Virus record (IMG/VR): IMGVR_UViG_3300025769_000595
Span: 1-29,130 of that record
DNA length: 29,130 bases
Direction: 5' to 3' (one strand)
Source of the DNA: a virus
Every line of letters starts with the position of its first letter. The stretch's first letter is position 1. Positions 869-19,000 of this stretch are shown piece by piece. The notes beneath the pieces were generated by a model, which was given only the letters and a program-made list of their open reading frames with translations, searched no databases and was not told where the DNA came from. The translations under genes were made by a program, and so were the position numbers.

Positions 869-1600
869 TTAATATCCTACAGTAGTAATGGTGAATATTT
901 CGTCACTCAAATCTGATAGCTCATTTTGAAAAAGGAAATCTCTTACAGAAGCATCGCTAGCAATTTGTACAGAAGGGCCTTCTCCGCCTGAAAAGTTAAT
1001 TGGCATGTTTCCGGTTTCTGAAGTTCCTGCAGCATTGGAAGATACAGTACTTCCCCTTAAAACTACGGGATTTTCTGAATAGTAAGCGGATATTGCTCCC
1101 CCGCCTATTATAAGTTGTCCATAGAGAACCGGTATGGGGAGTCCTTGAGAAATATTGTTTACCGGACCATTAAACAAATAAGAAGGGTCGTTCTGACTAT
1201 CCTCCGTTTCAGGCCCTGGAGCTAATAGTTCCGCTACTCCCCCTACAATAAGACTTATGCCTACTTCTACAAGAAAGGGAACATTAAAAACTGCCCCCAC
1301 AATAACTAAGATAATTCCCGCAACAATTCTTAACCCCGCCTTTGCTCCGCCAGGAACTTCAGTTATAATTATCTCTTCTTCCTCTACAGTACTTAGTAGT
1401 AGGTCTTCTGGATTTTGTAAAATATCTTTCCCTTTCTTTATTTCATAGGCAACTCCCGCTTCCTCTGCTTCTAAAAGATATTTTTTGAATCCCAAAGTCT
1501 GGCAAGATATTAATTTAAAAATATCTCGAATGTTTGCGCAATCCGTTTGCCAGACTTCTCCAAACTTAGCTATGTCTCCTACTAAGCGAACTGTTTGCAT
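869..1600 (-). CDS. Tail assembly protein, lambda gpI-like
   Basis: Protein of 243 aa, resembling the lambda gpI family needed for assembly of the tail tip with gpK, gpL and gpJ. Seen: an N-terminal domain opening with R-L-V-G-D-I-A-K-F-G (the family usually starts with a 'G-L-G-x-x-F-G'-like turn), a hydrophobic stretch at about residues 88-128 rich in Gly, Ile and Val, and a C-terminal segment with F-N-G-P-V-N-N-x-x-Q-G followed by P-I-P-V-L-Y-G, which is a hallmark of these proteins. The ATG at 1600 overlaps the end of the K-like gene by 19 nt and has a GAGG ribosome site upstream, so translation is probably coupled. The hydrophobic part may insert into or cross a membrane during infection; that is inference. 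Confidence 0.82.
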   Translation of the reverse strand: MQTVRLVGDIAKFGEVWQTDCANIRDIFKLISCQTLGFKKYLLEAEEAGVAYEIKKGKDILQNPEDLLLSTVEEEEIIITEVPGGAKAGLRIVAGIILVIVGAVFNVPFLVEVGISLIVGGVAELLAPGPETEDSQNDPSYLFNGPVNNISQGLPIPVLYGQLIIGGGAISAYYSENPVVLRGSTVSSNAAGTSETGNMPINFSGGEGPSVQIASDASVRDFLFQNELSDLSDEIFTITTVGY

Positions 1601-2286
1601 CTTATATACCTCGTTATATGTTTTGACCAGCCAGAGTAAATAGATTCTCTGCAGGATAGTCTGTTTTCTGCGTGATGTAAGAATAAACCTTCTCCCAAAT
1701 ATACCCCGCAGTGGTTGGGTATGTTTGAGAGTACACTAAAAATTATCATATCGTGCTCTTGTGGAGTTTCTACCTCGTACCAACCAAAAGCCTCGTATAG
1801 ATCGTCAAAATAATTTAATCCTTTGTTCCACCAGTTATCTTCAAAATTTATTGCAGAAAGCTCTATATTTAGCTTTTCTCTATAGTAATCTCGCACTAAA
1901 GAGTAACAATCGTTAGTTCCGAAATCATAAGTCCTGCCTAGCAAAGGATTACTTTTCTTTATTGGGTTGTGTGTAAATTTCTGTATTTCTGGCAAAGTAA
2001 AAACAATATAAGGAACTCCCAAAAAATTGCTGCTAGCTATATCGTTCTCGCTGGGGCCTTTGTCACTATCTGGGTGGCTGTGTACTATAGCGTATATATC
2101 TCCCTGTAGAGTTGCTTTTATATAGTCTTCCGCAGGAATTTTAAAATTGTTAAGTTTATCTTCTGCTTCATTTTTGCAAGGAATCCAAACTACTTTTCCT
2201 CTTTTATTTAGTAGTATACCGCAACCTTCTTCAGGATAACAGTCCAACAAATGTTCTACTATATCTTTATCTTCTTTGTTGTACAC
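1582..2286 (-). CDS. Tail tip peptidase, lambda gpK-like (JAMM + NlpC/P60)
   Basis: Protein of 234 aa with the two-domain structure of lambda gpK. The N-terminal Mov34/JAMM metalloprotease domain shows E19/E20, H69-S-H71-P and S79-x-x-D82, the full zinc-binding signature. The C-terminal NlpC/P60 domain shows C127 in N-D-C-Y-S-L, H192 in N-H-C-G-V-Y-L-G and H204/H205, fitting a Cys-His-His peptidoglycan hydrolase. Both active sites look intact. The family acts in tail-tip assembly, and the NlpC/P60 domain may cut cell wall at entry. The start is GTG at 2286, chosen because a GGAGG ribosome site lies 8 nt upstream; it overlaps the L-like gene by 20 nt. Both neighbours (L, I) fit the lambda order. 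Confidence 0.92.
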   Translation of the reverse strand: MYNKEDKDIVEHLLDCYPEEGCGILLNKRGKVVWIPCKNEAEDKLNNFKIPAEDYIKATLQGDIYAIVHSHPDSDKGPSENDIASSNFLGVPYIVFTLPEIQKFTHNPIKKSNPLLGRTYDFGTNDCYSLVRDYYREKLNIELSAINFEDNWWNKGLNYFDDLYEAFGWYEVETPQEHDMIIFSVLSNIPNHCGVYLGEGLFLHHAENRLSCRESIYSGWSKHITRYIRCKQFA

Positions 2287-3466
2287 CTGGAAATCCTCCG
2301 AACCGTAAATGGTTTGTTTTATTTAAGTTTGAATCAGGTATACCAGAACCTCCAGGCAATTCTAATGCATTATATCTAAGAGCACAAGAGTTTATTTTCT
2401 TTCCGCAAACATCTCCCAAAGTCCAGTATCTTCCTTCTTTTAAATTGTCGTTAACAGAAGTATCTACAGTAATTAATTTCACCTTAAATAGATCTCCTAA
2501 AAGTTTTTTTACATAGTCATTGTACCCAGACTGTTTATATCCGTAATATGTAGTGCCCGCACTATAAATACTGTATAGTCTTATTCTTCTCCAATTACCT
2601 CTGTCGCTATCTGAAGGAGTTCCTGTACCGGTCGTAATTGCTTGCCAATAATTTGTAACAGTTACCGGAGAAGTAGAAAGTCCGTCTGCACTGTATCTGT
2701 CAGCGGTGCTCGTAGTGGTATATAATGAATTTTTAGTAGAGGAGCCAGACCAAGCAGAAAATTGTCCAAGATTGGTGTCTGATATTACATACTCATCTAA
2801 ATCATTTATAAATAAAACTGAAGAACTACTTGGAGATTGAAATGTAGAGTCCCAATCACAACCACCTAGTCTTGCTTGAGGGGAGACTAGTTGTTGTGCT
2901 CCTTTATATTTGAAAGGACAAGCTCCTCCTATTACAACTCTTCTGGGAACCGTAACTCCTTGCAAGTCAAAAGGTGCTGCTAATTCAAAGGTTATATTTA
3001 GTATATTTTTTTCTTTAACTCTATCTATATAATAAACTGTTCTAGGATATTCTACGGGTGCTAAACCTGGCCCAACATCTCCCGAACCTCCTACAAGGTA
3101 TTTTTCTAGGGTGGTTCTCTTAGTAAGTTTAGTTCCGATTAATTCTTCAGGCTTTAAACCCCCTATAGAGTCTGACAAAACGGAGCCTATATTAGCTATA
3201 GTCAGGGTAGGTCTAGAAATTGCCCCGTCATTGCTCGTATCAAAGCCCTCTGCTTCAATAGGAATACCTACGTACTCTATCTCAGCCCCCACCACAAACT
3301 CTTGCCTCCACTCTCTGAATCTAATATTTTCTAAAGTAGTACCATCAAATTCCGCTCTTCCGGAATAAAAATAGGCGAAAGATCCTGTAGAATATTCTAA
3401 CTCATATAAAGTTATTAGAGAAGAGCCAGGATCTTGAAGTTGTGTTGTTCTTATTATATCTGTCAT
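2267..3466 (-). CDS. Minor tail protein, lambda gpL-like (Cys cluster protein) with an insertion
   Basis: Protein of 399 aa related to lambda gpL, a tail-tip protein whose C-terminal domain carries four cysteines that bind an iron-sulfur cluster in lambda. Seen: C183 in G-G-A-C-P-F-K-Y-K-G, C203 in G-G-C-D-W, and C354/C361 in D-V-C-G-K-K-I-N-S-C, then the typical end L-R-F-G-G-F-P-G-V. All four cysteines are present. Unlike the short linker expected, about 150 residues separate the second and third cysteines; this part contains Y-W-Q-A-I and N-W-R-R-I segments and many Ser/Thr/Tyr. The N-terminal half matches the general gpL layout. The start overlaps the stop of the small M-like gene as ATGA. 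The call is firm; the role of the insertion is unknown. Confidence 0.88.
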   Translation of the reverse strand: MTDIIRTTQLQDPGSSLITLYELEYSTGSFAYFYSGRAEFDGTTLENIRFREWRQEFVVGAEIEYVGIPIEAEGFDTSNDGAISRPTLTIANIGSVLSDSIGGLKPEELIGTKLTKRTTLEKYLVGGSGDVGPGLAPVEYPRTVYYIDRVKEKNILNITFELAAPFDLQGVTVPRRVVIGGACPFKYKGAQQLVSPQARLGGCDWDSTFQSPSSSSVLFINDLDEYVISDTNLGQFSAWSGSSTKNSLYTTTSTADRYSADGLSTSPVTVTNYWQAITTGTGTPSDSDRGNWRRIRLYSIYSAGTTYYGYKQSGYNDYVKKLLGDLFKVKLITVDTSVNDNLKEGRYWTLGDVCGKKINSCALRYNALELPGGSGIPDSNLNKTNHLRFGGFPGVQQRR

Positions 3467-3862: not shown

Positions 3863-6800
3863 TTACCTGTATGCGCAAGGAATAGCGACAGTCACTGTCT
3901 TGCCGGCGTCAGCTGCGGCACATCTAATCAATCCTTGTCTTGGGAAAACTGAAACTTCTCCTGCAGCGAGTGTTCCATTGTCTTCTAAATTTTTTACAGT
4001 AGCCTCTACCCCATCTATCTTTATACTAAAAGCTTCTCTACAGGCGGTCTGTAAATATAAAAAATCTGGGTTAAAACTACCATTACCACTACCAGAGGTT
4101 CCTACTGTTACCCAAAAATCTGTTTGTGGTTTCTTCATAATATTGTCGAACAAAAGTCCATATCGTGGTTGATACTGACCATCAGATACTAAATTATGAT
4201 CATCATCAGTAATAAAGCCAAGAACTAAAGTTTCCGAACTAGAGACTGCTGAAGTATATACTAAAACATCCCTAATATAATACGTAATAGTAGTGCCAGT
4301 TCTCTTTATATTAAAAGGGCAAACTCTATCGTTAATTGGATCATCAAAACCCCACCTTGCAGCTGTACTCGCAGTAGAGTCAAAACCTCCAGGAGGTATA
4401 TTAAGATCTTCGGAAACTCTGGCCATGGATCTACTGTATGTTCCATTCTGCTGGGCTTTCATAATACTATGAAATTTTTCGCTGCTTAACGTAGCTACTA
4501 CAGAACCTGATTCAATAATTTCTATTACAATTTCATCATTTAAAATATATACACCAGTTAAATAATCACTAAAATTTTGGGTATTAATATTAAATGAGTT
4601 GCCACCGGCATTAGTCGATACCTGTTGGCCAGCTAAAATTCCATTTAAACTATCATCTTGTGGGGTAAGTCTAAATCCATAAAGTATTTCACTTTCTGCA
4701 GCTATAGTGTCGATAGGAGATGCATCGCTGTAAAGAGCAGAGTTTACTAATCCAAAAGATAGTTTATGCTCGTGCGCTCCGGAATGCCAAAGCCACAAAT
4801 TTCCTACATATGGGGAAGTGTTGGAGGTTGAATTATTATATTCACCTGCATTCCCTTGATCTATTTGAACTTCCAAATCAAAATCTCCAGAGGCAGATAA
4901 AGAGCTTTTTCCTCTATGGGTCATAGTAAGATTACTGGTAGCCGAACGAGAGTCAGAGCCTGAGTAAAAACTTCCAAGTCTAACCTTATATGTTGGGTAT
5001 TTTGTACTGGGCCAGCCAGAATCTAGAAACGAGGTGTAGGGGAAATTGCTTGACCAAGTACCTGTTGGTACTGCCTCTGTAACTCCATGAGTATCCTCAA
5101 ATACAAAACCAGATGAAGGAGTGCTAAAACCCGTTCCATTAGTAGAATCTCCCGAATATGTAGTATCATAGTATGTTATAGGAATTAATTCGGAAGGCGT
5201 ATTAGACGCTATAGTTCCGTTAGTAACTTCCGTAACTACTTCATTATCCCACATAGAAGCTATCTGAAAGCCGCTTTTAGAATTCACATTTGCATCATTA
5301 ATAAAACCATCTACTATATGAGTGAGTATTCTCTCTCCAGAACTAAAGGATTGAGTGGCGCCTGCGTCATCAAAAGAAATAGTAATCCCACTTATCAAAT
5401 TATCGGTAGTAGCATGAGTAGTTTTTACCGTTAAAGGGTCATTATCATCTACTCTCTTCACCCACGCAGATCCAGTCCACTTATATCGATCCCACAACAA
5501 GCCTAGCATATTCCAAGAAGGATCAACCCCTAATAGCGTTGTCTCATCTCCTGCCTGTCTGAAAAACCTGCCTTGGTTAACATTAGTATCCTGGCATAAC
5601 CATATACCCTTACCAACAAAATGGGTAGCATACGAGTCTGGTTGAAGATTTGGCTTAGTAGGCATACCAAAGAATCCTAAATTTGTGCAAGTATTTCCTG
5701 TAAAAGTCCATTTTTGACAGCCTCCCGTACCGCCCCATCCGTGAGGCCGTAAAAGGGCATCATTTCCGTTATCATCAACAAATTCAAATGGACACAGCCA
5801 ACCCCAATCAGCTGTATCGGTGCCAAAATTCTCATTGTAATCTCTAAAGGTATTGTTATTACCAAGGCTACTAAATGTATCATCACTATAAGTGTCTCCA
5901 TTTGTAAATTCTATTAACCCTTCTGGACTACCGCCTATTTGCTGCTCCCAAGACAACTCTACTGGCGCAAATCTATAAGTACCTGAATCGAGGTCAGTAG
6001 CATCATAAGTGCCTAAGTACCAATGAGAATTATTATAGGTACAACCAATCATATCCTGGTACCAACGTCTACGATGAGCATCTTCTACTCTTATATCATA
6101 GTTTGTTCTACTAGTTCCGTCATTGACACCAACATTGGCGTTTCCAATAGCGCCCCAAGAAAAATTTGCCGAGCTTCCGCCATAGATTAACGGAAGATAG
6201 TTCCCGTCAGCTCTTAACTCGGTACAATCATTAGAAGGAGACCACCAAGTAGCATTTAAGTGCTGTACAACTGAGCCAGCGCCACCCTGGTTGGCAACGT
6301 AAAGAAAACTACTATTAGGGCTTCTACTATAAAGTATCAATAATCTATCCGCATTATTTTTATCCGCTTTTATAATCCATGGGGCTCTCCAAGTACCTTC
6401 TATAGTAGTGTTCGTAAAAGTTGTACCTCCTGTAGATGTACTGTCATACCCTACCCAAGTACTACCATTGTTAACTGATTTTACTAAGGCTCCTTCCATC
6501 AAAGCCCAGAGAACCCTAAAGGAACTTCCCCCTGATTGAGTTCCTACGGAAATTGCATAACACTTGTTTTGAACTGTAGCAGCAACATCACTAACAGTTG
6601 ATAAGTCATAATTAGTAATAGTTGCAGAAGATGAAAACGGTGCTTGTATACTCCAAATTCCAGTATTTGCACAGGAAGCCCAGAGAGTGTCACTTAAGTC
6701 GTCATAAGACCACTGTCCTATAGCTGTGGCTGTAAATGTAGGGTAAAATTGATTAGAATAATAATACCAATCTTTAAAATCTGTAACTACAATAACATCA

Positions 6801-8221
6801 TGTTGTGCAAGTATTAAACCATTAGCAGGATCTTTTCCGTCAAGAGCTCTAAAAGGCTCTCTTGCGCGATCTGTGTTAATGCCGCCCGCAATATTGAGGG
6901 ATGATGTTACTTGTAAAGCATCCCAAAAGGTATCCGTCGCACTGCTTACCATTAGCCATTGTGATCTAGGCTCAAATGTATTGTTAACATATCCAGTAGT
7001 ATATCTTTTCATGAAAGAGTAGTCTACAACCCCTACCCCTCCACTAGTCCCTGAAAAATCTATTTTCCACATCTCCGGAAGATATTGCGAACTGTAGTTG
7101 GAAGAGTCTAACGTAAGAGTTGCGTCTGAGGTGGCAATTTCTCCCGCATTAAAAAAAGGTACTGTATCATTATCGCTAACTTTGTAATAATATTGCTGAG
7201 TTTTGTCCGCTCCTACAGGTAAAATATTATTGTAAACTGTTGCTGTATAACTACTACCTGGAGCGCTACTTTGATAAGAAGGAGCTGCACTGCCTCTTAT
7301 ATTACCCACATCCAAGTCCAGAGTATCTATGTTGTGGCCAAAATACCAGCCTCCATCCCATTGCGGGTTACACGATATAGGACTTGTAGAAGTAGGGTGA
7401 GAATTACTACTAACAATAGGCAACCCATCATAATTAAAAGTACTTACAGCATCAAAGGGAAGCTGTCCTCTATTTTTAGTAAGCCACCAAGTAGCTTGGC
7501 CTGAACTTAGGTCTCTCATACCGTAAGAACCTCCAGCTGAAGAGGAGGCTGTCCACCCATCGGGGATGGAGCCCCCCTCGGCGTAGAAGGGTGGAAATAC
7601 CTGTCTAGAAAAAAATAGGTGTTCATTAAACGATTTATCAGAGCTGAGATCGTAAGGGTATAATATTCTATATAAAATTACCAGTACTTCAGTTGTGCTT
7701 TGACTTATAGGAGACGCAAAACTAACTGCTGTGTTCAGTCTTGGAGGGTAATAAAATTTACCTATTTTATAGTGAGTTCCATTTCCGGCTATCCCTATAG
7801 TATGAATATTACGGCTTCCTGAGGACGGAGGAAGTAATTGCTGAGTTAGTTTAACTTCACTAGTTGTATTATAGCCTCCGTCACCTATATTCTGTACTCG
7901 TGGAGTTCCTGTTATTTCTTGAGCAATCCACCAATTACCTCCAATAGATCTAGCAGTAGGATTTAAATTAGGCACATATCTATCCCCCGCCCAAAGATGC
8001 CAACAACCCCACCTGTAAGTATTTGGGACAGTCCGAGCATAATTAAACGGATCCAAATACGAATTTGAGCCTGCTACAGCAGAAATTTCATCCCAATTTA
8101 CCATAGTATTTGTTATAGTAGCATCAAATATTAAATTTTCTTTCCAATCCGTTTCTTCTATAACCTCTAAAGAATTAATATCTTTTTTTATTATTTTCAC
8201 TAAACCTTTAATGTTCTTCAT
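3863..8221 (-). CDS. Giant tail-tip/receptor-binding candidate, second copy (RBP2, 1452 aa)
   Basis: Not assigned to a named family with certainty. It is a collinear paralogue of the 1458-aa protein at 9948-14324. Shared landmarks: W-K-I-D-F-S-G-[ST]-S-G-G-V-G-V and S-F-M-K-R-Y near residue 400; a single Asp-box of the sialidase/BNR type, S-V-N-N-G-S-T-W, near residue 584; Y-K-W-x-G-S-x-W-V-K-R followed by D-D-N-D-P-L and a T-H...I-S-F-D-D-A segment at about 910-965; and a C-terminal domain with L-A-A-G-E-V-S and A-A-A-D-A-G-K-T ending in P-C-A-Y. Composition is rich in Ser, Thr, Asn, Gly and Trp, as in beta-structured adhesins. No signal peptide or membrane segment is seen. An AGGAG ribosome site precedes the ATG. 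Size, position among tip genes and Asp-box suggest a host-contact fibre; that role is inferred. Confidence 0.6.
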   Translation of the reverse strand: MKNIKGLVKIIKKDINSLEVIEETDWKENLIFDATITNTMVNWDEISAVAGSNSYLDPFNYARTVPNTYRWGCWHLWAGDRYVPNLNPTARSIGGNWWIAQEITGTPRVQNIGDGGYNTTSEVKLTQQLLPPSSGSRNIHTIGIAGNGTHYKIGKFYYPPRLNTAVSFASPISQSTTEVLVILYRILYPYDLSSDKSFNEHLFFSRQVFPPFYAEGGSIPDGWTASSSAGGSYGMRDLSSGQATWWLTKNRGQLPFDAVSTFNYDGLPIVSSNSHPTSTSPISCNPQWDGGWYFGHNIDTLDLDVGNIRGSAAPSYQSSAPGSSYTATVYNNILPVGADKTQQYYYKVSDNDTVPFFNAGEIATSDATLTLDSSNYSSQYLPEMWKIDFSGTSGGVGVVDYSFMKRYTTGYVNNTFEPRSQWLMVSSATDTFWDALQVTSSLNIAGGINTDRAREPFRALDGKDPANGLILAQHDVIVVTDFKDWYYYSNQFYPTFTATAIGQWSYDDLSDTLWASCANTGIWSIQAPFSSSATITNYDLSTVSDVAATVQNKCYAISVGTQSGGSSFRVLWALMEGALVKSVNNGSTWVGYDSTSTGGTTFTNTTIEGTWRAPWIIKADKNNADRLLILYSRSPNSSFLYVANQGGAGSVVQHLNATWWSPSNDCTELRADGNYLPLIYGGSSANFSWGAIGNANVGVNDGTSRTNYDIRVEDAHRRRWYQDMIGCTYNNSHWYLGTYDATDLDSGTYRFAPVELSWEQQIGGSPEGLIEFTNGDTYSDDTFSSLGNNNTFRDYNENFGTDTADWGWLCPFEFVDDNGNDALLRPHGWGGTGGCQKWTFTGNTCTNLGFFGMPTKPNLQPDSYATHFVGKGIWLCQDTNVNQGRFFRQAGDETTLLGVDPSWNMLGLLWDRYKWTGSAWVKRVDDNDPLTVKTTHATTDNLISGITISFDDAGATQSFSSGERILTHIVDGFINDANVNSKSGFQIASMWDNEVVTEVTNGTIASNTPSELIPITYYDTTYSGDSTNGTGFSTPSSGFVFEDTHGVTEAVPTGTWSSNFPYTSFLDSGWPSTKYPTYKVRLGSFYSGSDSRSATSNLTMTHRGKSSLSASGDFDLEVQIDQGNAGEYNNSTSNTSPYVGNLWLWHSGAHEHKLSFGLVNSALYSDASPIDTIAAESEILYGFRLTPQDDSLNGILAGQQVSTNAGGNSFNINTQNFSDYLTGVYILNDEIVIEIIESGSVVATLSSEKFHSIMKAQQNGTYSRSMARVSEDLNIPPGGFDSTASTAARWGFDDPINDRVCPFNIKRTGTTITYYIRDVLVYTSAVSSSETLVLGFITDDDHNLVSDGQYQPRYGLLFDNIMKKPQTDFWVTVGTSGSGNGSFNPDFLYLQTACREAFSIKIDGVEATVKNLEDNGTLAAGEVSVFPRQGLIRCAAADAGKTVTVAIPCAYR

Positions 8222-8230
8222 TTAAATCTC

Positions 8231-9946
8231 CTATGTTCTAGTAATGCTTATACTACCTGAATTTTTAGTGTAGCTTCCTCTCATACTTATATTATCTACT
8301 TGTTCTGTAGAGATAATCTCACTAAGTTGTATTTGAATTGTTCCCTGGTTATTAGAGTAACCTCCTAAAGGATTTACTGTATCTGTCTGTTTAGCGACAG
8401 CCAAATCTTGGAAATCTATTAGAAGTGTTCCCTGGTTATTAGAGTAACCCCCTAAAGGATTTACTGTATCCACTTCTTCAGTAGAAATAATGGTTTGAAA
8501 TACGCGAGAAATACTTCCTTCATTTTTTTCATAACTACCAAAAAACTCCGTGGTATCAATAATAAATCTCTGGACAAAACCTGTAGTTTCTACAATTAAA
8601 TCTACTGTGTCTAAAATTTGTCCTGTGAATCCTGTCTTTCTTAAGTTTAGAGTGTAAAACTCTACTACTTCTGGAGAAGGAACCTGCTTTGTTATAACAA
8701 AACTTCCCTCAGAAAAATTATCGTTTCCAGTAGGCAGAAAACTCCCCTGCACTTGATCAAAATCTACTCCTTGAACAGCTCCTTCAATAGTCCAGTAAAT
8801 TTGTTCTATAGGAAATAAGGTTCCTTTAAAAAAGACAGTAGCTTCGTAAACTGGGCTGGAGTTTGGTCCGACAGATATTGAGTCTATTACAGCTCCCTGC
8901 TCATCTACTGCTTGTGCGCCTGCAAAAGCAAGAGTAAATAACGTTATAGTATCTACTATAGCTCCGCTAACACTGTCCTTTCTGAGCCTTAAAGTATTTG
9001 TTAAATCTACATTAGTAGAGGGAGCAGTAATAGAAAAACTTCCAGAACTAGAAGCAAAGTCTCCGGTAAGAGAAATAGTGCCGGTACTAGTAGAATAATC
9101 ACTGCCGCTAATTTCATAATATATGTCTTCGGGCTCAAAATTTTGTACACTTACATAAACTGTATCAGTGTCTTGTTGAAGTATGTAGAAAGCTCCTATT
9201 AGAGTGTCTTGAGCATCAACAAAATTAAAAGTTTCTGGTCCTCTAGAGGTATCTATTATAGTAACATTTACTTGGGCTAAAACTGTTCCGAAAATAGACA
9301 CTTCTCTTACTGAAAGAGTAAAAGTTTCGGGGCCTTCAGTAGCTAAATCAGCCAAAGTCCCTATATCAAAAGAGCCTTGAGAAAGGGAGGTAGTTCCAGA
9401 CATGTTAAAAGAGCCGTTTAAGGCTTGAAAGTCAGCTAAAGAAGCTCCGTCTAGACTCCAATAAAGAAGTTCAGGACCTCTTTCTAAGCTACTAACATTT
9501 ACTGTTTTTACTTCTCCTTCGTTTATATTGAAGTTTCCTGAAGATACAGTAACGGAGGAAGTTCCGGAGACTAACTCGTATACTCTCACAAATTTGGCGG
9601 TGATAGACCCTATTACATCATTTAAATAAGTTACTGTATAGCTGTCACAATACACTACTACTATTTTTTCGCCTGAGGGCTCGTTACTGTCCGGCACAGT
9701 AAAATCAAAAGTTTTGTATTTTCCCCTATTATCAAAAAAGCCCGAAATAGCTCTTATTTCCTCTATAGGTCTGTTTGTAAAAGTAATAGAATAAGTTTCT
9801 TCTCTAGCATCTGTACCTATAGATACGCGGTTTTCGTATCCATCACCAAAAGTGGTGAGGGAATAAATAGGCTTTATACTTTTCGTAACTCCGCCCCTAT
9901 CAGGAACCCGAAAAGTAAATGCTAAATCTTCAAATCCTACTGTCAT
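8231..9946 (-). CDS. M-like domain fused to Calx-beta-like arms and a repeat tail (M2, 571 aa)
   Basis: Residues 15-124 are an M-type minor tail domain (F-G-D-G-Y-E-N-R-V-S-I-G-T, F-T-N-R, then V-P-D-S-N-E-P-S-G-E-K). About three beta-sandwich units follow, recognised by recurring Y-W-[ST]-[LI], G-S-F, T-E-G-x-E-T-F-x-L-S-x-R and I-D-T-S, the style of Calx-beta repeats in phage tail proteins. The last ~105 residues are four copies of a ~29-aa unit around [GS]-[GS]-Y-x-x-N-x-G, ending I-T-R-T. I place the start at ATG 9946, directly after the stop of the upstream gene, because the three M-like proteins then align at their first residues; an ATG at 9970 would add 8 residues and overlap the upstream gene. 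No clear ribosome site is seen, so coupling is likely. It probably anchors the following giant protein to the tip (inference). Confidence 0.7.
   Translation of the reverse strand: MTVGFEDLAFTFRVPDRGGVTKSIKPIYSLTTFGDGYENRVSIGTDAREETYSITFTNRPIEEIRAISGFFDNRGKYKTFDFTVPDSNEPSGEKIVVVYCDSYTVTYLNDVIGSITAKFVRVYELVSGTSSVTVSSGNFNINEGEVKTVNVSSLERGPELLYWSLDGASLADFQALNGSFNMSGTTSLSQGSFDIGTLADLATEGPETFTLSVREVSIFGTVLAQVNVTIIDTSRGPETFNFVDAQDTLIGAFYILQQDTDTVYVSVQNFEPEDIYYEISGSDYSTSTGTISLTGDFASSSGSFSITAPSTNVDLTNTLRLRKDSVSGAIVDTITLFTLAFAGAQAVDEQGAVIDSISVGPNSSPVYEATVFFKGTLFPIEQIYWTIEGAVQGVDFDQVQGSFLPTGNDNFSEGSFVITKQVPSPEVVEFYTLNLRKTGFTGQILDTVDLIVETTGFVQRFIIDTTEFFGSYEKNEGSISRVFQTIISTEEVDTVNPLGGYSNNQGTLLIDFQDLAVAKQTDTVNPLGGYSNNQGTIQIQLSEIISTEQVDNISMRGSYTKNSGSISITRT
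8339..8383. repeat. 45-bp direct repeat, copy A (in M2 C-terminal tract)
   Basis: This copy matches 8426-8470 at 44 of 45 bases. The spacing is 87 nt, exactly one 29-aa unit, so the reading frame is kept. It encodes the D-T-V-N-P-L-G-G-Y-S-N-N-Q-G-T part of the repeat unit. The near-identity compared with the diverged flanking units points to a recent unit duplication. Confidence 0.9.
8426..8470. repeat. 45-bp direct repeat, copy B (in M2 C-terminal tract)
   Basis: Partner of 8339-8383, with a single base difference (CCTCCT against CCCCCT on the plus strand), which is silent at the protein level. It encodes the preceding 29-aa unit of the M2 tail. Confidence 0.9.
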
Positions 9947-9947
9947 T

Positions 9948-12900
9948 TTAGGTAGCGTCGTAATAAGCACATGGCATAGAAATTGCTATGGTCTTTCCTG
10001 CGTCTGCGGCGGCGAATCTTAAATATCCTTCTTGTGGGTAAATAGAAACTTCTCCTGCAGCGAGAGTAGCTGCATTATCAAACCCAACAACATTTGCCTC
10101 AGTACCATCAATTGTAATACTATAGGTTTGTCTGTACGCGGCTTGAAGATGGCTAAAATCTGTTCGATAGGCTCCGGTTGCAGGGCTTGCCTCTCCTACT
10201 TTTAGCCAATAATCGTTTGTTGCTGCTTTTTTAAAGCTATGGTATGTTCCGGAGTCTTGCGTCCAAAAAGTGTTGTTATTGGTATTGGTGCCTATCGCAT
10301 TATTATACTTTGTTGTGCAAGGAATAAGACTCTCTGAGCTAGTAGCCGCGGAAGTATGAACTAATAGTCCTCGAATATAGTATTTAACTGTAGTTCCTGT
10401 TCTTTCAATAGTAAACGGGCAGAAAGAATATTTTGGAAACAGGGCCATGCTAAACTCAGGTCGCGATCCAGAGCTGGTATTTGATAATGGACCGCGAAAT
10501 CCTGTCTGTAAATTTCCATCATAGTAAGATCCTGGATTAGTAAATTCGTCCTCTACATTTAAAAATATTTGCGTCTGGGGTTGCGTTGTAGAGTACACCA
10601 CGGATCCCCCTTCTATAACTTCTATCAAAACTGGCGTGCCATTTCGGATGGAAGTAAAATTTTCACTCTCGTTATTTGTTGCAACGTCATTCGGATATTC
10701 GAGATAATTATTGATAGTCAGGGATGAGCTTGTCTGTTGAACCCCTCCTGAAGAAGCGTAGGGGTGGTTTTCTGTAGGATTTTCCACAATACTTAATCTA
10801 AAGCCATAGTTTATATCTGAAAAAGAGTCTACATTTGTATTATTTTCTTCTGGACTAATAGAGTCCGAATATAAAGTTGCATCTGTCAAACCCCAAGCTA
10901 TTTGTCTCTCGACCCCTACTGTAGGAGGAGAGTTCCAGGTGTCCTGAAGATTTACTATAGGGTAGTCATACCAATTAGTACTATCTAGGTCGCCAAAAGG
11001 TTGAGTAGTAAGAGAAGTATCCCCGGAGGCTGCGGAGGAAATTTTCAATCGAGTAGATATAAAATAAGTATTAGCGGTCGAACTAGTGTTGCCATCCTGC
11101 CTTCCTGTAAAATTCCAGAAAGGAGTTCCACGATCAGTGCGCTGTATGCTGCCACGAAACGTAGTATTCACTAAAGCCCCCGACAACAGAGTTCTTGTAA
11201 TAACACACGTATCCGTATTATAAGATCGTGTATCAAGGCCACTAGACGATGTCCAAGTGCTATTGTTTACTCCTTGGCTGTCATTCAAGAAAAAAGGAAT
11301 TAATTCTGAAGGAGTGCTTAATCCTAAGGTAGTACTAAAAGAAACTGATTCGCTTGGATAATAAGAGACTGTGGGAGAAAAAGACTCAAAAGAAGTTGCT
11401 GCATCATTTTGTATACCATCACAAACAGCTACCGATATTAACTCTCCGGCTGTATAATTTTGAGTTCCCGATGCGTCGTCAAAAGAAATTGTAGCCCCTC
11501 CAATTAAAGCATCGGTGCTCAAATGAGTACTTTTTACCCCGAGAGGATCGTTGTCGTCTTGTCTTTTTACCCAAGAAGAGCCATTCCATTTATATCTGTC
11601 CCAAACCTCTCCTATGAGTTGTGCAGAGGGATCCCAGCCGTAAAAAGAAGTTCCTACAGATTGTAACCGTTGGTTACTGTCGATCCATAAGCCCCTTCCT
11701 AAATAATATTGTCCTATACTTGAATTACTTTGCAGTAGAGTAAGCGAGTGGTCTGAAAAATCTAGCTTATAAAAACCAAAGATAGCATCTGTATCATTGT
11801 AATAAGGAGCCCAAATTAAGCAGTCATTTCCATCATCATCCGTAGTTTCATAAAAAAAGAAACCTTGTTGAGTGCCTCCGGAACTAGTTCCCTCTAAAAC
11901 ACCGTTTGTGTATATTCTATTTGCCAACCCAAAATCTTTTATATTAGGGGGGGTGTTTGTGCGACTATCATAACCAAAACTTGTAGAATTAGACCAAGTT
12001 AAAGGAAACTTACTATACCCAGGAGATCCGGTATCAATCTGAGTCTCAAAAAATATCTCAATAGGAGTCATTCCATCTCTCTGATCTACATTACCTTCTA
12101 ATTCTCTAACTTGCCAGCAGTTTGATAACCACCACTTTGATTGTGTTTTAGTACATCCAAACCTTTTTTTAATTCTTTTTCGGATTAAACTTGAAGATGC
12201 TGGATAAGTTACTGAAGAAGTTCCAAAAGTTACGTCGAACTGTTGTTGGGTCACTCCCCACCCCTTAGAGCCAGTTAAATAGTCTGTGAGACCGCCACCA
12301 CCGAAATGGGTCATAAAGCTAAGAGGATAGTCTGTAGACAAAAGAGGAGTTGTGTCGCTTACCGAACTCCACCAAACTGCGTGAGTTTTATTAAGACGTG
12401 TCCCCTCATAATCAACAGTGCTGGTTGTTTTGTTAAAAATAACTAGAAGTCTATTATCTGTTTGCTTATCGGCATTTACTGCTATAACATTTCCCCAATC
12501 TGCCTCTATATTTGTTTGAGTAAATGTAACTCCTCCTGTACTAGTAGAGTCATAGGCTGTCCAGCTTGTGCCGTTATTTGTAGACTTAACCAAAGCGCCT
12601 TTTATAAATGCCCACACCGTTCGGTGAGTAGTTTGAGAAGTTCCCAAAGCTAGAGAGTAAGCTTTATTTTCGGTAGTAGAACCAACGTCTGGAAGAGACG
12701 CAAGATTAAAGTTTGTAATCGATATACTACCTAAAGGATCTGTCACTCTCCACAAGCCCGTAAGAGGGCAGGCTAACCAAAAACTATCAGATAATTCATC
12801 ATATTCATAAGCAGAAACATAAGATAAAGTAAAAGCAGGATAATTTGTAGAGTTTATTCTTATAAAAATATCATCTACAAAATTTGAAAAGATTATTTCT

Positions 12901-14324
12901 TTTGAAGTAACTTTAACTCTGTGTATATCACTATTTTTATAAAGTTCATCTGCTTCAAAAACGTGAGAGTTGGGAGACGACCATGCTGAAGTATCATTAT
13001 CAACTTTGTACATTGGGCCATAGTTAAATACTCCGTCAGGTTTTTCAGTACTAAGACTATCTCGGTTTAGTTCATAGCCTCCAATAACATTTAATTGTCG
13101 GGGAGTAAACGTGTTGTTAGTCCAGCCAGTGAAATATCTCTTCATAAAAGAGTATTCAGCTACACCAACTCCTCCACTGCTACCGGAAAAGTCTATTTTC
13201 CAATATTCGGGAATTCTTGGATTATAATTTTCTGTATTGAGAGTGAGAGTGGCATCAGTAGTAGGAATCTCATTCACATTGAAAAATGGAGTAGTTGGAA
13301 GATTAGTTTTTGTTTGGTAAGATTGTGTCTTACTGAAAGTTGAGGGAATAACAGAACCCCAAAGCATCCAATGACTAGAACTTGCCCCAGGGCCTACTTT
13401 AATTGACCCAAGTATTGCCCCAAATCCTTGAGTGTTTGTATTAATGTTAAATTCTCCAACCACTAAACCGTCCCAGCCAGTGAAATGCTGGTCTTGTGTT
13501 GCTACTAGGGCGCCATTATTATCATCATAAACTCGAGGCCAGCTTCCTACATTTGGTCTTTCAGATACGAAAGTTCCTGACCAAGAACCTCTCCTGTTTC
13601 TCGACGGGTTAAAGGTGCTTGGTTTAGATTGCCATGTGGTAGCGCTATTTCTGCACCCCAGAAAATCTGTCATACTCCACTGAGAGCTTGCCACCCAACT
13701 ATTTTTGCCTCCTATAGAATTAAGAACTAAGCCGAATCTAAATAGCATATCATGATAGACATCATACCAGCTTTTATCGGAACTTGCAGGAGCAGTTATT
13801 GTAATAACGTATTGAATAATAGCTATTTGAGTATTTGATTGCACCACTGAACTTGGAAAACTTGCACAGCTTATAAAACTAAAAAAGTTGGCTGATGAAG
13901 ATCTTACAAGAGCTACAGAATTTATATTTCGTGTACTTGTACTGAGTGGAGGCCCTAATTCTCTTAAAACCGTAACTGTAGCTGTTTCGTTATCAAAAGA
14001 CATAGTTACAGCTGGAGTTCCGGGTATGTCTCTTGGCTTACTCCAAGTACCTGGAAGAGAAAAAACACTTCTATCAAATGTTGAAATATATTCATCGTTC
14101 ACTAAAAAAGCATAACCTCCTATCGATGAGGATTGGCCATTTCTATCGCCTACAGGTATATTATTGTCTAAATATACCTGTGTGCTATTACTATTGTGAT
14201 CCCAGCCCGCAGGGTTACCAAAGTAGTGGTTATGTAAAAAAGCATTCTCAACAACATCAGAGGTATATTCTACCTCATTCGTAAATGCATTTTTTAAACT
14301 TATTTGTACTTCACCTTTTAACAT
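9948..14324 (-). CDS. Giant tail-tip/receptor-binding candidate, first copy (RBP1, 1458 aa)
   Basis: Collinear paralogue of the 1452-aa protein at 3863-8221. The same landmarks lie at nearly the same residues: S-F-M-K-R-Y near 393, the Asp-box S-T-N-N-G-T-S-W near 583, Y-K-W-N-G-S-S-W-V-K-R at about 905, and the C-terminal L-A-A-G-E-V-S and A-A-A-D-A-G-K-T ending P-C-A-Y. Between landmarks the two copies differ widely, including the N-terminal ~350 residues and about residues 600-880, as expected for parts under diversifying selection. The single Asp-box is too little to claim sialidase activity, and no catalytic set can be identified by eye. Ribosome site AGGA lies 7 nt before ATG 14324, just after the M1 stop. 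It is most likely a virion tail-tip adhesin working with M1; it could instead be a tail-shaft decoration. Confidence 0.6.
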   Translation of the reverse strand: MLKGEVQISLKNAFTNEVEYTSDVVENAFLHNHYFGNPAGWDHNSNSTQVYLDNNIPVGDRNGQSSSIGGYAFLVNDEYISTFDRSVFSLPGTWSKPRDIPGTPAVTMSFDNETATVTVLRELGPPLSTSTRNINSVALVRSSSANFFSFISCASFPSSVVQSNTQIAIIQYVITITAPASSDKSWYDVYHDMLFRFGLVLNSIGGKNSWVASSQWSMTDFLGCRNSATTWQSKPSTFNPSRNRRGSWSGTFVSERPNVGSWPRVYDDNNGALVATQDQHFTGWDGLVVGEFNINTNTQGFGAILGSIKVGPGASSSHWMLWGSVIPSTFSKTQSYQTKTNLPTTPFFNVNEIPTTDATLTLNTENYNPRIPEYWKIDFSGSSGGVGVAEYSFMKRYFTGWTNNTFTPRQLNVIGGYELNRDSLSTEKPDGVFNYGPMYKVDNDTSAWSSPNSHVFEADELYKNSDIHRVKVTSKEIIFSNFVDDIFIRINSTNYPAFTLSYVSAYEYDELSDSFWLACPLTGLWRVTDPLGSISITNFNLASLPDVGSTTENKAYSLALGTSQTTHRTVWAFIKGALVKSTNNGTSWTAYDSTSTGGVTFTQTNIEADWGNVIAVNADKQTDNRLLVIFNKTTSTVDYEGTRLNKTHAVWWSSVSDTTPLLSTDYPLSFMTHFGGGGLTDYLTGSKGWGVTQQQFDVTFGTSSVTYPASSSLIRKRIKKRFGCTKTQSKWWLSNCWQVRELEGNVDQRDGMTPIEIFFETQIDTGSPGYSKFPLTWSNSTSFGYDSRTNTPPNIKDFGLANRIYTNGVLEGTSSGGTQQGFFFYETTDDDGNDCLIWAPYYNDTDAIFGFYKLDFSDHSLTLLQSNSSIGQYYLGRGLWIDSNQRLQSVGTSFYGWDPSAQLIGEVWDRYKWNGSSWVKRQDDNDPLGVKSTHLSTDALIGGATISFDDASGTQNYTAGELISVAVCDGIQNDAATSFESFSPTVSYYPSESVSFSTTLGLSTPSELIPFFLNDSQGVNNSTWTSSSGLDTRSYNTDTCVITRTLLSGALVNTTFRGSIQRTDRGTPFWNFTGRQDGNTSSTANTYFISTRLKISSAASGDTSLTTQPFGDLDSTNWYDYPIVNLQDTWNSPPTVGVERQIAWGLTDATLYSDSISPEENNTNVDSFSDINYGFRLSIVENPTENHPYASSGGVQQTSSSLTINNYLEYPNDVATNNESENFTSIRNGTPVLIEVIEGGSVVYSTTQPQTQIFLNVEDEFTNPGSYYDGNLQTGFRGPLSNTSSGSRPEFSMALFPKYSFCPFTIERTGTTVKYYIRGLLVHTSAATSSESLIPCTTKYNNAIGTNTNNNTFWTQDSGTYHSFKKAATNDYWLKVGEASPATGAYRTDFSHLQAAYRQTYSITIDGTEANVVGFDNAATLAAGEVSIYPQEGYLRFAAADAGKTIAISMPCAYYDAT

Positions 14325-14326
14325 AA

Positions 14327-16078
14327 TTATGTCCTAGTTATATATACCCCGAAAGAAGACTCCGTCGAAGAAAAAGTATTTGTATTGTTTATAGACTCTG
14401 TCTCTTCTGCGCCTACAATTACTGTATATCTTATTAAATTCTCAACCTGACCGTTCTCAGCAAGATCAAAAGGATTGTTTAAATTAATATTTTCTGTTTT
14501 CGATACTACTATAGTTCCTTGTCTTTGTAGCTCCGAGATAGATGCTGACGGCGCGACTAGAGAGAAAATATTTCTATTGTTTATAGACTCTGTTTCTTGT
14601 GCTCCTACAATTACTGTATATCTTATTAAATTCTCAACCTGACTGTTCTCAGCAAGATCAAAAGGATTTAATGAATCAAGCTCTTCAGTCTGAGTTATAA
14701 AAGCCGTCCCATAAACTAGCACACAAGAATCAATTACTGGACCGACAGCACTTCCCGTTCTTAAACTTATTATAAATGCTTCTGTATCTACTCCCGACTG
14801 CTTAACAACATCAAAAGTTGCCGTATTTAAATTATTCGTTCCTGTTGGTGTAAAACTTCCAGATATTAAATCAAAATCAACACCGCCGGTAGCATTTTCA
14901 ATAGTCCAATAAATTGTTTGAATATCGAAAAAGTTTGCTGTATAATTTATCGTTGTAGTATATGGGCTTCCCAGCTCCAACAAAACAAAATCAATATCTT
15001 GCTGTAAAGCATTTGTTATCCTTCCACCTATAAAACTCTCAGGTAAAAAGTTTAAAGTTATAGTATCAACAATCTCTCCACTAATACTATTTTTTCGAAG
15101 ATTCAGAGTTCTTGGTGTACTCTGCTCTACGTCAAGTATAGACTGTAATACTTTTGTAGCGCTGCTTGAGGCAAAACTACCTGATAAATCTATGACCCCA
15201 AAAGTGGGATTTGCTAAAAGGGAAGAGCTTGCTATAGGATCTATTGAAAAGTATATATTCTCTGCTGGGTCGAAGTTCGAGACTCCAACATATACTGTTA
15301 AAGATTGTCCGGAAGTTATATTCTCCGACCCTACAGGATCTCCCTGATCGTTCACCCACTGAAAAACTTCTGCACCTACTGAAGTATCTAAAACCAGTAC
15401 TTCTTTTGAGACTAATACTGCTCCGCCAATAGAACCCTCACGTATAGAAAGAGTGTATGTTTCTTGTCCTTCGGTAGTTACATCATCTATTGTTTGTAAG
15501 TTAAAAGAACCTGTGGCGGCTTCTTGTGTTCCTGTCATGGAGAAAGAACCGCTTACTGCAGTAAAATCTGGCGAAGCTCCTAAAGAGAGAGTCCAGTATA
15601 ATAGTTCAGGGCCCCTATTAGTACTAGTCAAATTTATTGTTTCAGTAACGCCCTCATCTAGTATAATTCTTGAATTTAGTATATTTAATAAAGCTATCTC
15701 GCTTTGATCTTCAAATACTCTAATAAAATCACAATTAATTGATCCTATAGTATCTGTTACATATACCCTATTATAAGAAGGGCAATAAACAATTATCTCT
15801 TTTTCACCAGAAGGCTCATTGCTGTCCGGAACAGTAAACGAAAAATTCTTAAACTTCTCTCTTTCGTTCAGAAAAGAAGATATTCTAACAATTTCTTCTG
15901 ACGACCTATTAGTAAATGCTACCGAGTATACTTCTTCGTAACTATTTGTACCTATAGATACACGGCTATCATACCCTTCCCCGAAGCTCTCTATATTAAA
16001 AATAGGCTTTAAAGATTTTTTAAAATCTTTATCGGGTACTACTCTAGTACTAGTTAGATCTAAAAACCCTAAAGCCAC
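14327..16078 (-). CDS. M-like domain fused to Calx-beta-like arms and a repeat tail (M1, 583 aa)
   Basis: Paralogue of M2 (8231-9946). Residues 15-123 form the M-type domain (F-G-E-G-Y-D-S-R-V-S-I-G-T; F-T-N-R; V-P-D-S-N-E-P-S-G-E-K at 83-93, identical in M2). About three Calx-beta-like sandwiches follow (roughly 133-237, 238-345, 346-460), with T-E-G-Q-E-T-Y-T-L-S-I-R and L-D-T-S in the first. The tail carries two 64-residue-spaced copies of a segment containing N-P-F-D-L-A-E-N and E-N-L-I-R-Y-T-V-I-V-G-A, then ends I-T-R-T like M2. The start is GTG at 16078, overlapping the tape-measure stop as TAGTG; no strong ribosome site is visible, so translational coupling is likely. It follows the tape measure, where lambda has M itself. 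A docking and spacer role for RBP1 is inferred. Confidence 0.72.
   Translation of the reverse strand: MALGFLDLTSTRVVPDKDFKKSLKPIFNIESFGEGYDSRVSIGTNSYEEVYSVAFTNRSSEEIVRISSFLNEREKFKNFSFTVPDSNEPSGEKEIIVYCPSYNRVYVTDTIGSINCDFIRVFEDQSEIALLNILNSRIILDEGVTETINLTSTNRGPELLYWTLSLGASPDFTAVSGSFSMTGTQEAATGSFNLQTIDDVTTEGQETYTLSIREGSIGGAVLVSKEVLVLDTSVGAEVFQWVNDQGDPVGSENITSGQSLTVYVGVSNFDPAENIYFSIDPIASSSLLANPTFGVIDLSGSFASSSATKVLQSILDVEQSTPRTLNLRKNSISGEIVDTITLNFLPESFIGGRITNALQQDIDFVLLELGSPYTTTINYTANFFDIQTIYWTIENATGGVDFDLISGSFTPTGTNNLNTATFDVVKQSGVDTEAFIISLRTGSAVGPVIDSCVLVYGTAFITQTEELDSLNPFDLAENSQVENLIRYTVIVGAQETESINNRNIFSLVAPSASISELQRQGTIVVSKTENINLNNPFDLAENGQVENLIRYTVIVGAEETESINNTNTFSSTESSFGVYITRT
14383..14476. 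repeat. 94-bp direct repeat, copy A (in M1 C-terminal tract)
   Basis: This copy matches 14575-14668 at about 90 of 94 bases. The offset is 192 nt, that is 64 codons, so the frame is preserved. It encodes the second L-N-N-P-F-D-L-A-E-N ... E-S-I-N-N block of the M1 tail. Confidence 0.9.
14575..14668. repeat. 94-bp direct repeat, copy B (in M1 C-terminal tract)
   Basis: Partner of 14383-14476, with about four base differences. The ~98 bp between the two copies show no such identity, so only the block itself is conserved or recently copied. Confidence 0.9.
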
Positions 16079-19000
16079 TAGCTTGCACCATAAGGACTGA
16101 GAATACCTCCTGGTCTCTTTTGGTTTTGTAGTTCTTGTTGGACTGCTACGGCTATAGCTTTACCCAGGTTTCCGGCTTGGTTAGAATCTTGGCTTGAAGT
16201 AGTTTGTCCTTGTCCTTCATTATTAATAGTAACTCCAACACTTACATTATTTGTTTGCGAACTACCCATTCCGGTTACAGGAATAGACTTACCGTCGGGA
16301 AGAGGAACTATAGCTTCATTCATTTTGCCCTCTCCTACTAAGCCTAAAGTAGGTTTATTTATTATTCCTCCATTCGCGTAAGCTCTGAAACCTCCAGGAG
16401 CCATTCCTCCATTTGCAAAGCCAAAGAAACCTAATCCAGCTTTCACAAGGCTCATAAAACCGCCACCAGAACCACCGCCGCCTCCGAATAAACCGCCTAG
16501 TTTATCAAAAAGACTGCTAAAAATTCCTCCCAATTTGGAGAGAAACGACCCCTCTCCACCAAATAAACCTTTTAGTTTTGTTACAAAACTACCTTCTCCA
16601 CTAAAAAGACCTTTTAATTTACCAAAGAATCCTTTATTTTGTACAGCAAGCTGTTCTGTAGGTTTGATTATACCCTTTTCTAGAGTCTCTTCTAGCTGCT
16701 TATTTAATCCTAAAGGATCTTGTCCAGACTCTAAAAAGTTTGGCAGAGAATCTGGTCTTACAGGCGCTTGATTAGAAGCAACTCCAGACTCATTAGTGCT
16801 GCTCCCTAGAGGTGCGTTTCTGTTTCTTAAGTACTCATTAAATAAAGGGCCGCCGTCTGCCGCAATTCCTGCAGCGTTTCCAGAGGGACGCAAGGCGGGA
16901 GGCAAAGTGCTGGGGTCTACTGTGGGCCCGTCATTTAAATTTACTCCTGAGGGAGGTGGCGCATCGCCAGCAGAACCACAGCTACACCGCTCGCATGCTG
17001 CAGCAATCGCAGCAGCCCCTCTAGCAAAAGTATCTGATAATTTTGCAGCAAAACTGTTGCTTGAGCTATCTATTGTTTGTTTAATATTTGTAGACCCTGA
17101 ATCAAAAGAATCTACAATATTTTTCCTGACTCCTTCCTTAGTTTCTTCTCCCGCTACGGCTTCTTTAAATAACGCCGCTATCTCTGCATAATCGTTGGGG
17201 TCCGGCTTTAAACCTAAAAAGATTTCTAATCTTTCGGGCAATAATGCTTTTAATATTTTAAGTGCTATTATCTTATTTACAAAGTCCCCAATAGTTTTTG
17301 CAAGAGATTGAACAAAACTTTTGGCTGCATCTTTAAACTTTTCCGTACCGCTAACTACGTCTGTTATAAGTTTTGCTAAATTATCTTGTAGAGAGCCTCC
17401 AATAACTTTTCCTAATTTATCGAACTCGTCTGCTTGCTGCATAGTTAATTTAATTCTTTCTTTCTGTATATCTCTCAATCGAATCAACGCTTCTTGTTCT
17501 CTCACAAGGCCCGCTCTTACATTAGGCTGATTAGCTAATCGTATTGCAATCCCTTTAGCGTCAATATCATTATTTATTTTTTGCAGCTTAGAAGTTTCTT
17601 GTAGTACTTTTAGCTTTGCAGTCTCTATTTCTTTTGCCTTTCCGGTTAAATTGCTGATATTAATTTGAGCAACTGCAAGATCTCTTTGAGTGTCTAAATA
17701 AGCTCGAGTCTGACTACGAACAATCCTAATCCTTTCTGCTAGCTGTTGAACTAGTGGCAGACTTTTACCAAAAGAATCTTGAAACTGTTTAGAAAAATCT
17801 GAAAGTTCTCCTGTAAAAGCTGATTGCGAGTTTGTCGCGTCTTTTATAGATTTCTCTACGGCGGTTATACTAGAAAGTACAGCATCTAGCCCGTCTATTC
17901 CACTGTCTTTAAAACTATTTACGGTTTGAGTTAAAGAATCTATTGAATTAGCGAAACCTGAAGTATTGGTAGTTGCTTCTCTAGCTTTAATACCTGCGGC
18001 TTCAAGGACAGATATTATAGCCTCTATTTGGGCAACACCGGTTACTTTAGTGTCTTTAAGCGTTACTCCTAAGGCACTGAGTTCTGCCTTCACTTTAGGC
18101 AATACTGCCGTAAGATTTTCAAAGATTTGCTCAAGATTTGAGTCAGGATCACTCTCAAGAACAGCAAGAGATTTCCTAAAAATCGATGCGGTGTTTAAAG
18201 TTACGATTGAATTTGCTTGTTGAAGAGCAGTGCCTTCTTTAAGCAATTTATTTACATTTTCATAAGCTTCTGAGTAGCTTTCTAATTCCTTATTGAGGTC
18301 TTCTATTCTTTTCTTGGCGATTTCATTTTTCTTATTTAATTCTTCTTGTTGGGCTGCAGCCTGGCCTATAGCTCCTTCTTTATATTGCTTTACAAGGCTT
18401 CCATTCTCGCTCGCTAACTCTGCTAGATTAAATTTAGAATCTTCTAAGGTTTTTTGAAAGTCGCGTGAAGCGTCTGTAGCCAAAGGTGTTAAATTATAGA
18501 TTCTTGTCCAACCTAAAGCTATAGCTCCTAATGTATTTAGTATAAAACCAAAAATTACTCTTACTACTGGCCCAAGACGATCAACAAATCCGAGTACATT
18601 TTTTGAAAGTGAATTAAAATTATTAACAATACCTAAAATAAGATCTTTTACGAGTAAGAATACTCCCACAAATCCTGCAAAACTTAAAGCTTTTGACGCT
18701 ATTCTTCCTGCTGTTGCGGCAGCATTACCTATCCTCTTGAAGGCGCCTATTGCTGCAGACCTGGCCTGAAGCATTGTTTTCTTAAACCCCAATAGCCAGA
18801 CCTTCCAGGTTTGAGTAGTTTTTTGAGCAGCTGCTGAATTTGCAACTTCCATTTCTCTTAAAGCTGCTCTCATTGCTCGTACAGCTTCTAAAGATGCGCC
18901 CTTATATACACCCTTAATGACTTCGCCATTCTTAATAATCTCTCTTTCTACTCTATCAAGATCTTTTTCGAATCTTTTCGCATTAATTGGGGATAGCGAT

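Follow-up and report, generated by a model that had tools for sequence, protein, structure and literature searches.

Three gpM-type genes and two giant putative adhesin genes in a lambda-type tail tip operon

In the Gram-positive siphophages p2 and TP901-1, Dit proteins hold the receptor-binding proteins. A Dit with inserted carbohydrate-binding modules has been described as an "evolved Dit" (PMC6669499), and 936 phages with dual receptor-binding proteins, such as Phi4.2, are known (PMC6315561). In phage lambda, gpM forms a hexameric ring between the tail tube and L/J (PMC10721106). Here we analyzed a 29,130-base virus record (IMGVR_UViG_3300025769_000595; the whole stretch is called the window), whose lambda-type tail tip operon contains three gpM-type genes, M1, M2 and M3. 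M1 and M2 are fused to long C-terminal arms, and each is followed by a gene for a giant putative adhesin (G1 and G2). We consider it probable that M1 and M2 are armed gpM ring subunits whose tails dock G1 and G2, and that adhesin and tail are swapped as a cassette.

M1, M2 and M3 resemble lambda gpM in their Phage_min_tail family (PF05939), in their place between the tape measure and L, and in the fold order of an M2 model. Lambda has one armless gpM of 109 amino acids (aa), whereas the window has three such proteins, two of them fused to ~450 further residues and accompanied by an adhesin gene each. M1 and M2 would share with the Dit of Gram-positive siphophages the use of a Dit-type ring as a host-binding platform; those phages have one Dit gene, whereas the window has three Dit-type genes and encodes each adhesin as a giant protein of its own, which is apparently docked on a C-terminal repeat tail. 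Phi4.2 is like the proposed tip in that one tip has two distinct receptor-binding proteins, but both are on the same baseplate, and Dit duplication is not described for it.

gpM-type domains, arms and giant adjacent proteins

The main genes of the window all lie on the minus strand, in the order portal, protease-capsid fusion, tail genes, tape measure and M1-G1-M2-G2-M3-L-K-I-J, as assigned with Pfam and PHROG profiles. The features of the tip region are as follows (designations such as L008 are our handles for the phages compared).

16078..20121, minus strand: tape measure protein (TMP), directly upstream of M1; phrog_3779 (9e-42) and phrog_1292 (3e-21); 45-46% to L008
14327..16078, minus strand: M1, 583 aa, gpM domain, beta-sandwich arm and repeat tail; PF05939; orthologues of 45-49% in L008, L009 and L011
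15689..16078, minus strand: gpM-type (Dit) domain of M1, about residues 1-130; Pfam match at residues 16-122, and tree
14330..14698, minus strand: C-terminal repeat tail of M1, about residues 461-583; self-repeat score and direct DNA repeat
9948..14324, minus strand: G1, giant putative adhesin of 1458 aa; 46% to L008 G1
11655..12965, minus strand: candidate beta-propeller region of G1, about residues 454-890; low-confidence model and Asp-box motif
8231..9970, minus strand: M2, 571-579 aa, gpM domain, beta-sandwich arm and repeat tail; PF05939; AlphaFold2 model m2f8f3f26117f
9554..9946, minus strand: gpM-type (Dit) domain of M2, from the likely ATG; Pfam match at 25-131, modelled strand/helix order, L009/L011 synonymous divergence at backbone level
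8582..9553, minus strand: M2 arm, three Ig/Calx-beta-like beta-sandwich domains; model residues 139-460, Foldseek
8234..8581, minus strand: C-terminal repeat tail of M2, about residues 464-579, proposed G2 docking plug; replaced together with G2 in L007; repeats of period 29
3863..8221, minus strand: G2, giant putative adhesin of 1452 aa; 31% to G1, 73% to L010 G2, 43% to L007 G2
4050..8585, minus strand: exchangeable cassette (M2 tail and most of G2), relative to the near-identical L007/L022
3463..3858, minus strand: M3, plain gpM-type protein of 131 aa in the canonical position before L; PF05939; M3 clade with 100/100 support
2267..3466, minus strand: L, tail tip protein of 399 aa, the next ring partner in lambda; PF05100 (3.6e-22)

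The initial annotation had described two collinear gene pairs between the tape measure and M, and both were present as minus-strand open reading frames (ORFs) at the positions listed. Its figure of 42% of the window for two putative adhesins fits the four genes together (41.9%), whereas the two giant proteins alone take up 30%, the linkers having been counted in. M2 is 579 aa long from a GTG and 571 aa long from an ATG at 9946; the ATG is the likely start, because it matches the start in four of four diverged orthologues.

The gpM-like N-termini that the same annotation had proposed for M1 and M2 matched PF05939 above its curated cut-off of 39 bits (5e-11 and 43.4 bits for M1; 9.5e-13 and 48.9 bits for M2). 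The refuting outcome that the annotation had named, N-termini of M1 and M2 failing to match gpM, thus did not arise. M3 scored somewhat under the cut-off despite its canonical position (2.9e-8, 34.5 bits). Profile comparison joined the M1/M2 group to the M3 group at E=4e-20 and gave 2.4e-8 and 5e-7 against lambda gpM, which was also reached in a sequence search with M1 (E=0.0034). The M genes sit between the tape measure and L (TMP-M1-G1-M2-G2-M3-L), as expected of gpM. In the AlphaFold2 model of M2 (monomer, 10 sequences), the N-terminus had the strand-helix-strand order expected of the tail-tube-like gpM fold; a gpM structure was absent from the top Foldseek matches for M2, among which generic Ig-like structures dominated.

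In the proposed tip, the gpM (Dit) ring gene would have been amplified to three within the operon. M3 would be the plain ring protein, and M1 and M2 would join the tip through their gpM domains, most simply stacked with M3 between the tube and L/J. It is possible, though somewhat unlikely, that the three proteins instead form one mixed ring, such as a 3 + 3 hexamer, whose arms would continue to hold G1 and G2. Two observations would suit a mixed ring: the 3-fold ring of lambda contains gpM in two conformations (PMC10721106), and of the residues that single gpMs conserve, M1/M2 have some and M3 has others. The ~30% identity of M3 to M1/M2 neither favors nor excludes ring sharing.

The M2 model contained three confident beta-sandwich domains at residues 139-460, with a predicted local distance difference test score (pLDDT) of mostly 75-92, in line with the beta arms of the initial annotation. 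Foldseek matched the arm to Ig-like structures and to Calx/NCX CBD12 tandem structures, a similarity of fold only. The Pfam Calx-beta model gave no match at E≤1 in M1 or M2, and "Calx-beta-like" is therefore used as a fold word. The M tails are built of repeats spaced 27-30 residues apart, or ~65 when the units are taken in pairs, and the self-repeat score of the M1 tail was 173, compared with 26 ± 5 for shuffled sequence. At the DNA level, the M1 tail contains a direct tandem repeat of 129 nucleotides (nt) at 88% (within 14369-14689) and the M2 tail one of 54 nt at 94% (within 8330-8470); both are recent internal duplications.

G1 and G2 were similar over their full length (31% identity). Neither matched a Pfam or PHROG family of known function, and neither matched the defence-system models. 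Residues 454-890 of G1 resembled WD40 and GH74 propellers (VIA Z 11-12) in a model of low confidence (pLDDT 47), and one clear copy of an Asp-box motif, STNNGTSW, was read in the sequence; with the model taken as a hint, this region is likely a beta-propeller. G1 and G2 could then be mainly enzymes, for example GH74-like propeller polysaccharide hydrolases still held by the M fusions. GH74 xyloglucanases were among the propeller matches (Z ~11) and the Asp-box motif would fit, but WD40 proteins scored equally in this low-confidence model and no Pfam or PHROG enzyme family matched, and we regard a mainly enzymatic role as unlikely. The G2 of L008 (L008 16133-21712) is of a third type, ~25% identical to all other G proteins, with an apparent inserted FG-GAP-type stretch. 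J remains full length (1898-1908 aa).

Exchange of the M tail together with G

The window and L007/L022 shared mostly 97-100% DNA identity from G1 to J, with the exception of one block. This block took in the final ~115 codons of M2 and the whole of G2 apart from ~60-90 codons at its end, and DNA identity inside it was ~31-71%. Its left break lay at M2 codon 462-466, which is the arm/tail border in the model. Nonsynonymous divergence (dN) within the block was 1.05 for the M2 tail and 0.58 for G2, compared with a synonymous divergence (dS) of 0.02 outside it. L010 presented the mirror case, in which the M2 body was 58% identical to that of the window, the M2 tail was alignable (57%), and G2 was 73% identical.

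A second exchange was seen between L009 and L011. The backbone dS was 1.72 for TMP, 1.67 for L, 1.45 for K, 1.78 for J and 0.69 for M3, and the gpM-proximal parts gave 1.11 (M1 1-240) and 1.26 (M2 1-240). In the M1 module, dS was 0.013 for M1 251-460, 0.034 for the M1 tail and 0.061 for G1, and in the M2 module it was 0.17 for M2 251-460, 0.035 for the M2 tail and 0.21 for G2. The values were obtained with a Nei-Gojobori script, and the high ones are saturated and approximate, although the contrast is large. By this measure the distal arm, the tail and G moved jointly and the gpM domain stayed. The dN/dS ratio was 0.09-0.10 in the gpM-proximal parts, which shows purifying selection on the gpM domains of M1 and M2, and 0.06-0.17 in TMP, L, K and J. 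The ratio was 1.05 for G1 and 0.59 for G2. Amino-acid change in G1 after the exchange thus ran at about the silent rate, and relaxed and diversifying selection are indistinguishable here. G1 was also considered as a target of a diversity-generating retroelement, and this was rejected: the L009/L011 differences were scattered over the full length of the protein and showed no A bias.

Gene adjacency and conveniently placed recombination sites could give the same patterns even if the M tail and G never touch. The M and G genes are neighbors, and the conserved C-terminus of G2 could act as a crossover site. However, the breaks cut into the M coding sequences, either at the border of arm and tail or in the arm, instead of falling between genes, which disfavors linkage alone. 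Likewise, L010 and the window have alignable tails and similar G2 proteins on diverged backbones, and in other phage types, too, a G-like gene accompanies an anchor with a repeat tail. We therefore consider adjacency without contact quite unlikely. Docking of G on the repeat tail is the best supported of the proposed steps that go beyond direct observation; the suggestion in the initial annotation that M proteins serve as docking sockets for two fibres gains support, at the sequence level, from the exchange patterns and from the pairing of G with repeat-tailed anchors elsewhere.

Duplication history and G-like proteins in other phages

The TMP-M1-G1-M2-G2-M3-L layout recurred in IMG/VR in L008, L009/L012 (nearly the same phage) and L011, and part of it was present in L006, L007, L010 and L013. 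Besides the window, three or more phage lineages of IMG/VR accordingly have the M1-G1-M2-G2-M3 arrangement. In sister phages found by a search anchored on L (L030-L046 and others), TMP and L directly flanked a lone plain gpM (120-125 aa), with no G gene in between. A single-module intermediate was not seen among the relatives, indicating that the module doubling predates the group. The two M-G pairs are also old: the longest DNA match between them was ~104 nt at 72%.

In a rooted tree that included lambda and five other gpM proteins, the sister gpMs and M1, M2 and M3 all fell on one side (support 99/96), with M1 and M2 in one clade (100/99) and M3 in another; M3 had the longest stem branch. 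This topology agrees with the earlier proposal that the phage copied its M gene, and places the copying within this family. M1 and M2 are homologous end to end (39% identity), which together with the full-length similarity of G1 and G2 upholds the duplication of the pair. The simplest history would be that gpM was first duplicated within the family; an arm was then added to one of the copies, and a further duplication doubled this armed gene together with its G. The finer branching is unsure because the ring-protein alignments are short.

M1 and M2 might also represent alternative tips, each virion carrying one M type and mixed populations displaying different adhesins. Three paralogues of one ring protein are compatible with this, and phages with dual receptor-binding proteins exist (PMC6315561). 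Nevertheless, the three M genes lie close together in a single operon, terminator-like sites were no commoner than expected by chance, and both modules were retained in every lineage seen, so that alternative tips appear very unlikely. The three alternative M rings raised by the initial annotation fared no better, as nothing indicated alternation, and neither inverted repeats nor a recombinase-type switch was found in the module region.

G-like proteins were also encoded behind other anchors. In L016, which is T4-like (sheath and head genes), the G-like protein follows a 1386-aa anchor that combines FG-GAP repeats, arm domains like those of M1/M2 and a repeat tail; in L014, XacN1 and Alteromonas R22Y it follows a smaller protein that ends in repeats. 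In the isolated Microcystis phage Mic1 (L055, MN013189 23900-52000), the start of ORF26 was related to the adjacent minor tail protein ORF27 (27%, E 2e-13), and the G-like ORF25 comes after ORF26. ORF34 and ORF32 were also related, and all four appear to have a common M-type N-terminal domain. These M types gave a weak DUF2460 match and hardly any gpM profile match, and the periodicity of the ORF26 tail was not significant (p 0.07). Mic1 appears to have four M-type genes and one M-fusion::G pair. It is like the window in combining an M-type N-terminus, a further domain and a C-terminal tail, followed by a G-like protein, and in having several M-type paralogues; it is unlike the window in having a single G-like protein, located after J, and the sequences are distant. 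Mic1 virion proteins have been reported from the region ORF20 to ORF35, and the text passages of that report do not name ORF25 or ORF26 (PMC7156551); the pairing and the paralogy are our reading, not that of the report.

A query with the sister gpM matched 419 places in 418 deposited phage records, so that records with two or more recognizable gpM genes are rare, although such a scan would miss diverged or fused copies such as those of Mic1. No report of a duplicated gpM or Dit was found among open-access papers. Multiple gpM genes thus look rare, and the Dit as an adhesin platform is already known. The "new tip design" of the initial annotation is too strong a term, given the known Dit proteins that hold receptor-binding proteins and our reading of Mic1.

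Among other genes, a 687-aa gene at 24841-26904 (minus strand) matched both head maturation protease and major head protein profiles, which suggests a protease-capsid fusion. K (1582-2286, minus strand) combines JAB-type and NlpC/P60 peptidase domains. L is 399 aa long compared with 232 in lambda, with a C-terminal extension past the Phage_tail_L match, and the L gene of L050 (701-1853) occupies two separate reading frames, perhaps because of an assembly error. A search of a genome collection for a host or prophage, with an alignment of L as the query, found none.

Proposed tip architecture and its implications

In the architecture that we favor, each of M1 and M2 would extend an outward arm of three Ig/Calx-beta-like domains that ends in a ~115-residue repeat tail, and each tail would dock the adhesin of the adjacent gene (M1-G1 and M2-G2). 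The tip would then show two kinds of side adhesin, G1 and G2 binding receptors, besides the central fibre J, which is retained. The docking tail and its adhesin would evolve and be exchanged as one, and the gpM domain would stay matched to the phage tail. For the class of Dit proteins that carry receptor-binding proteins, the evidence here is the co-exchange of M tail and G.

Several points weigh against this architecture. The repeat tail, from residue 464 in M2, was modelled at pLDDT <30, and the G1 model was poor (residues 330-1458 predicted), so that its propeller region served solely as a hint. The residues that single gpMs conserve are divided between M1/M2 and M3 and do not indicate an order of the rings. 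Across all pairs, G similarity tracked arm similarity better than tail similarity, a difference explained by the divergence of most tails beyond what can be aligned. Linkage of neighboring genes alone may also produce co-exchange.

A broader proposal is offered tentatively, as one that may well prove wrong: that three paralogous Dit rings are present, two of them holding adhesins by a repeat-coded plug, and that plug and adhesin form a general exchange unit common to siphophages, T4-like phages, a jumbo phage and an Alteromonas podovirus-type phage. If the repeat tail is such a general plug, it would aid adhesin prediction in uncultured phages and explain similar adhesins on unrelated tail types.

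The comparisons give a testable rule for changes of binding protein, in which the ring domain stays with the tail, and the docking tail and adhesin travel together. This suggests a way for phages to trade attachment tools without rebuilding the tail. If the favored architecture is true, a core ring protein, present as one copy in almost every deposited phage in which it was detected, can multiply to add host binding.

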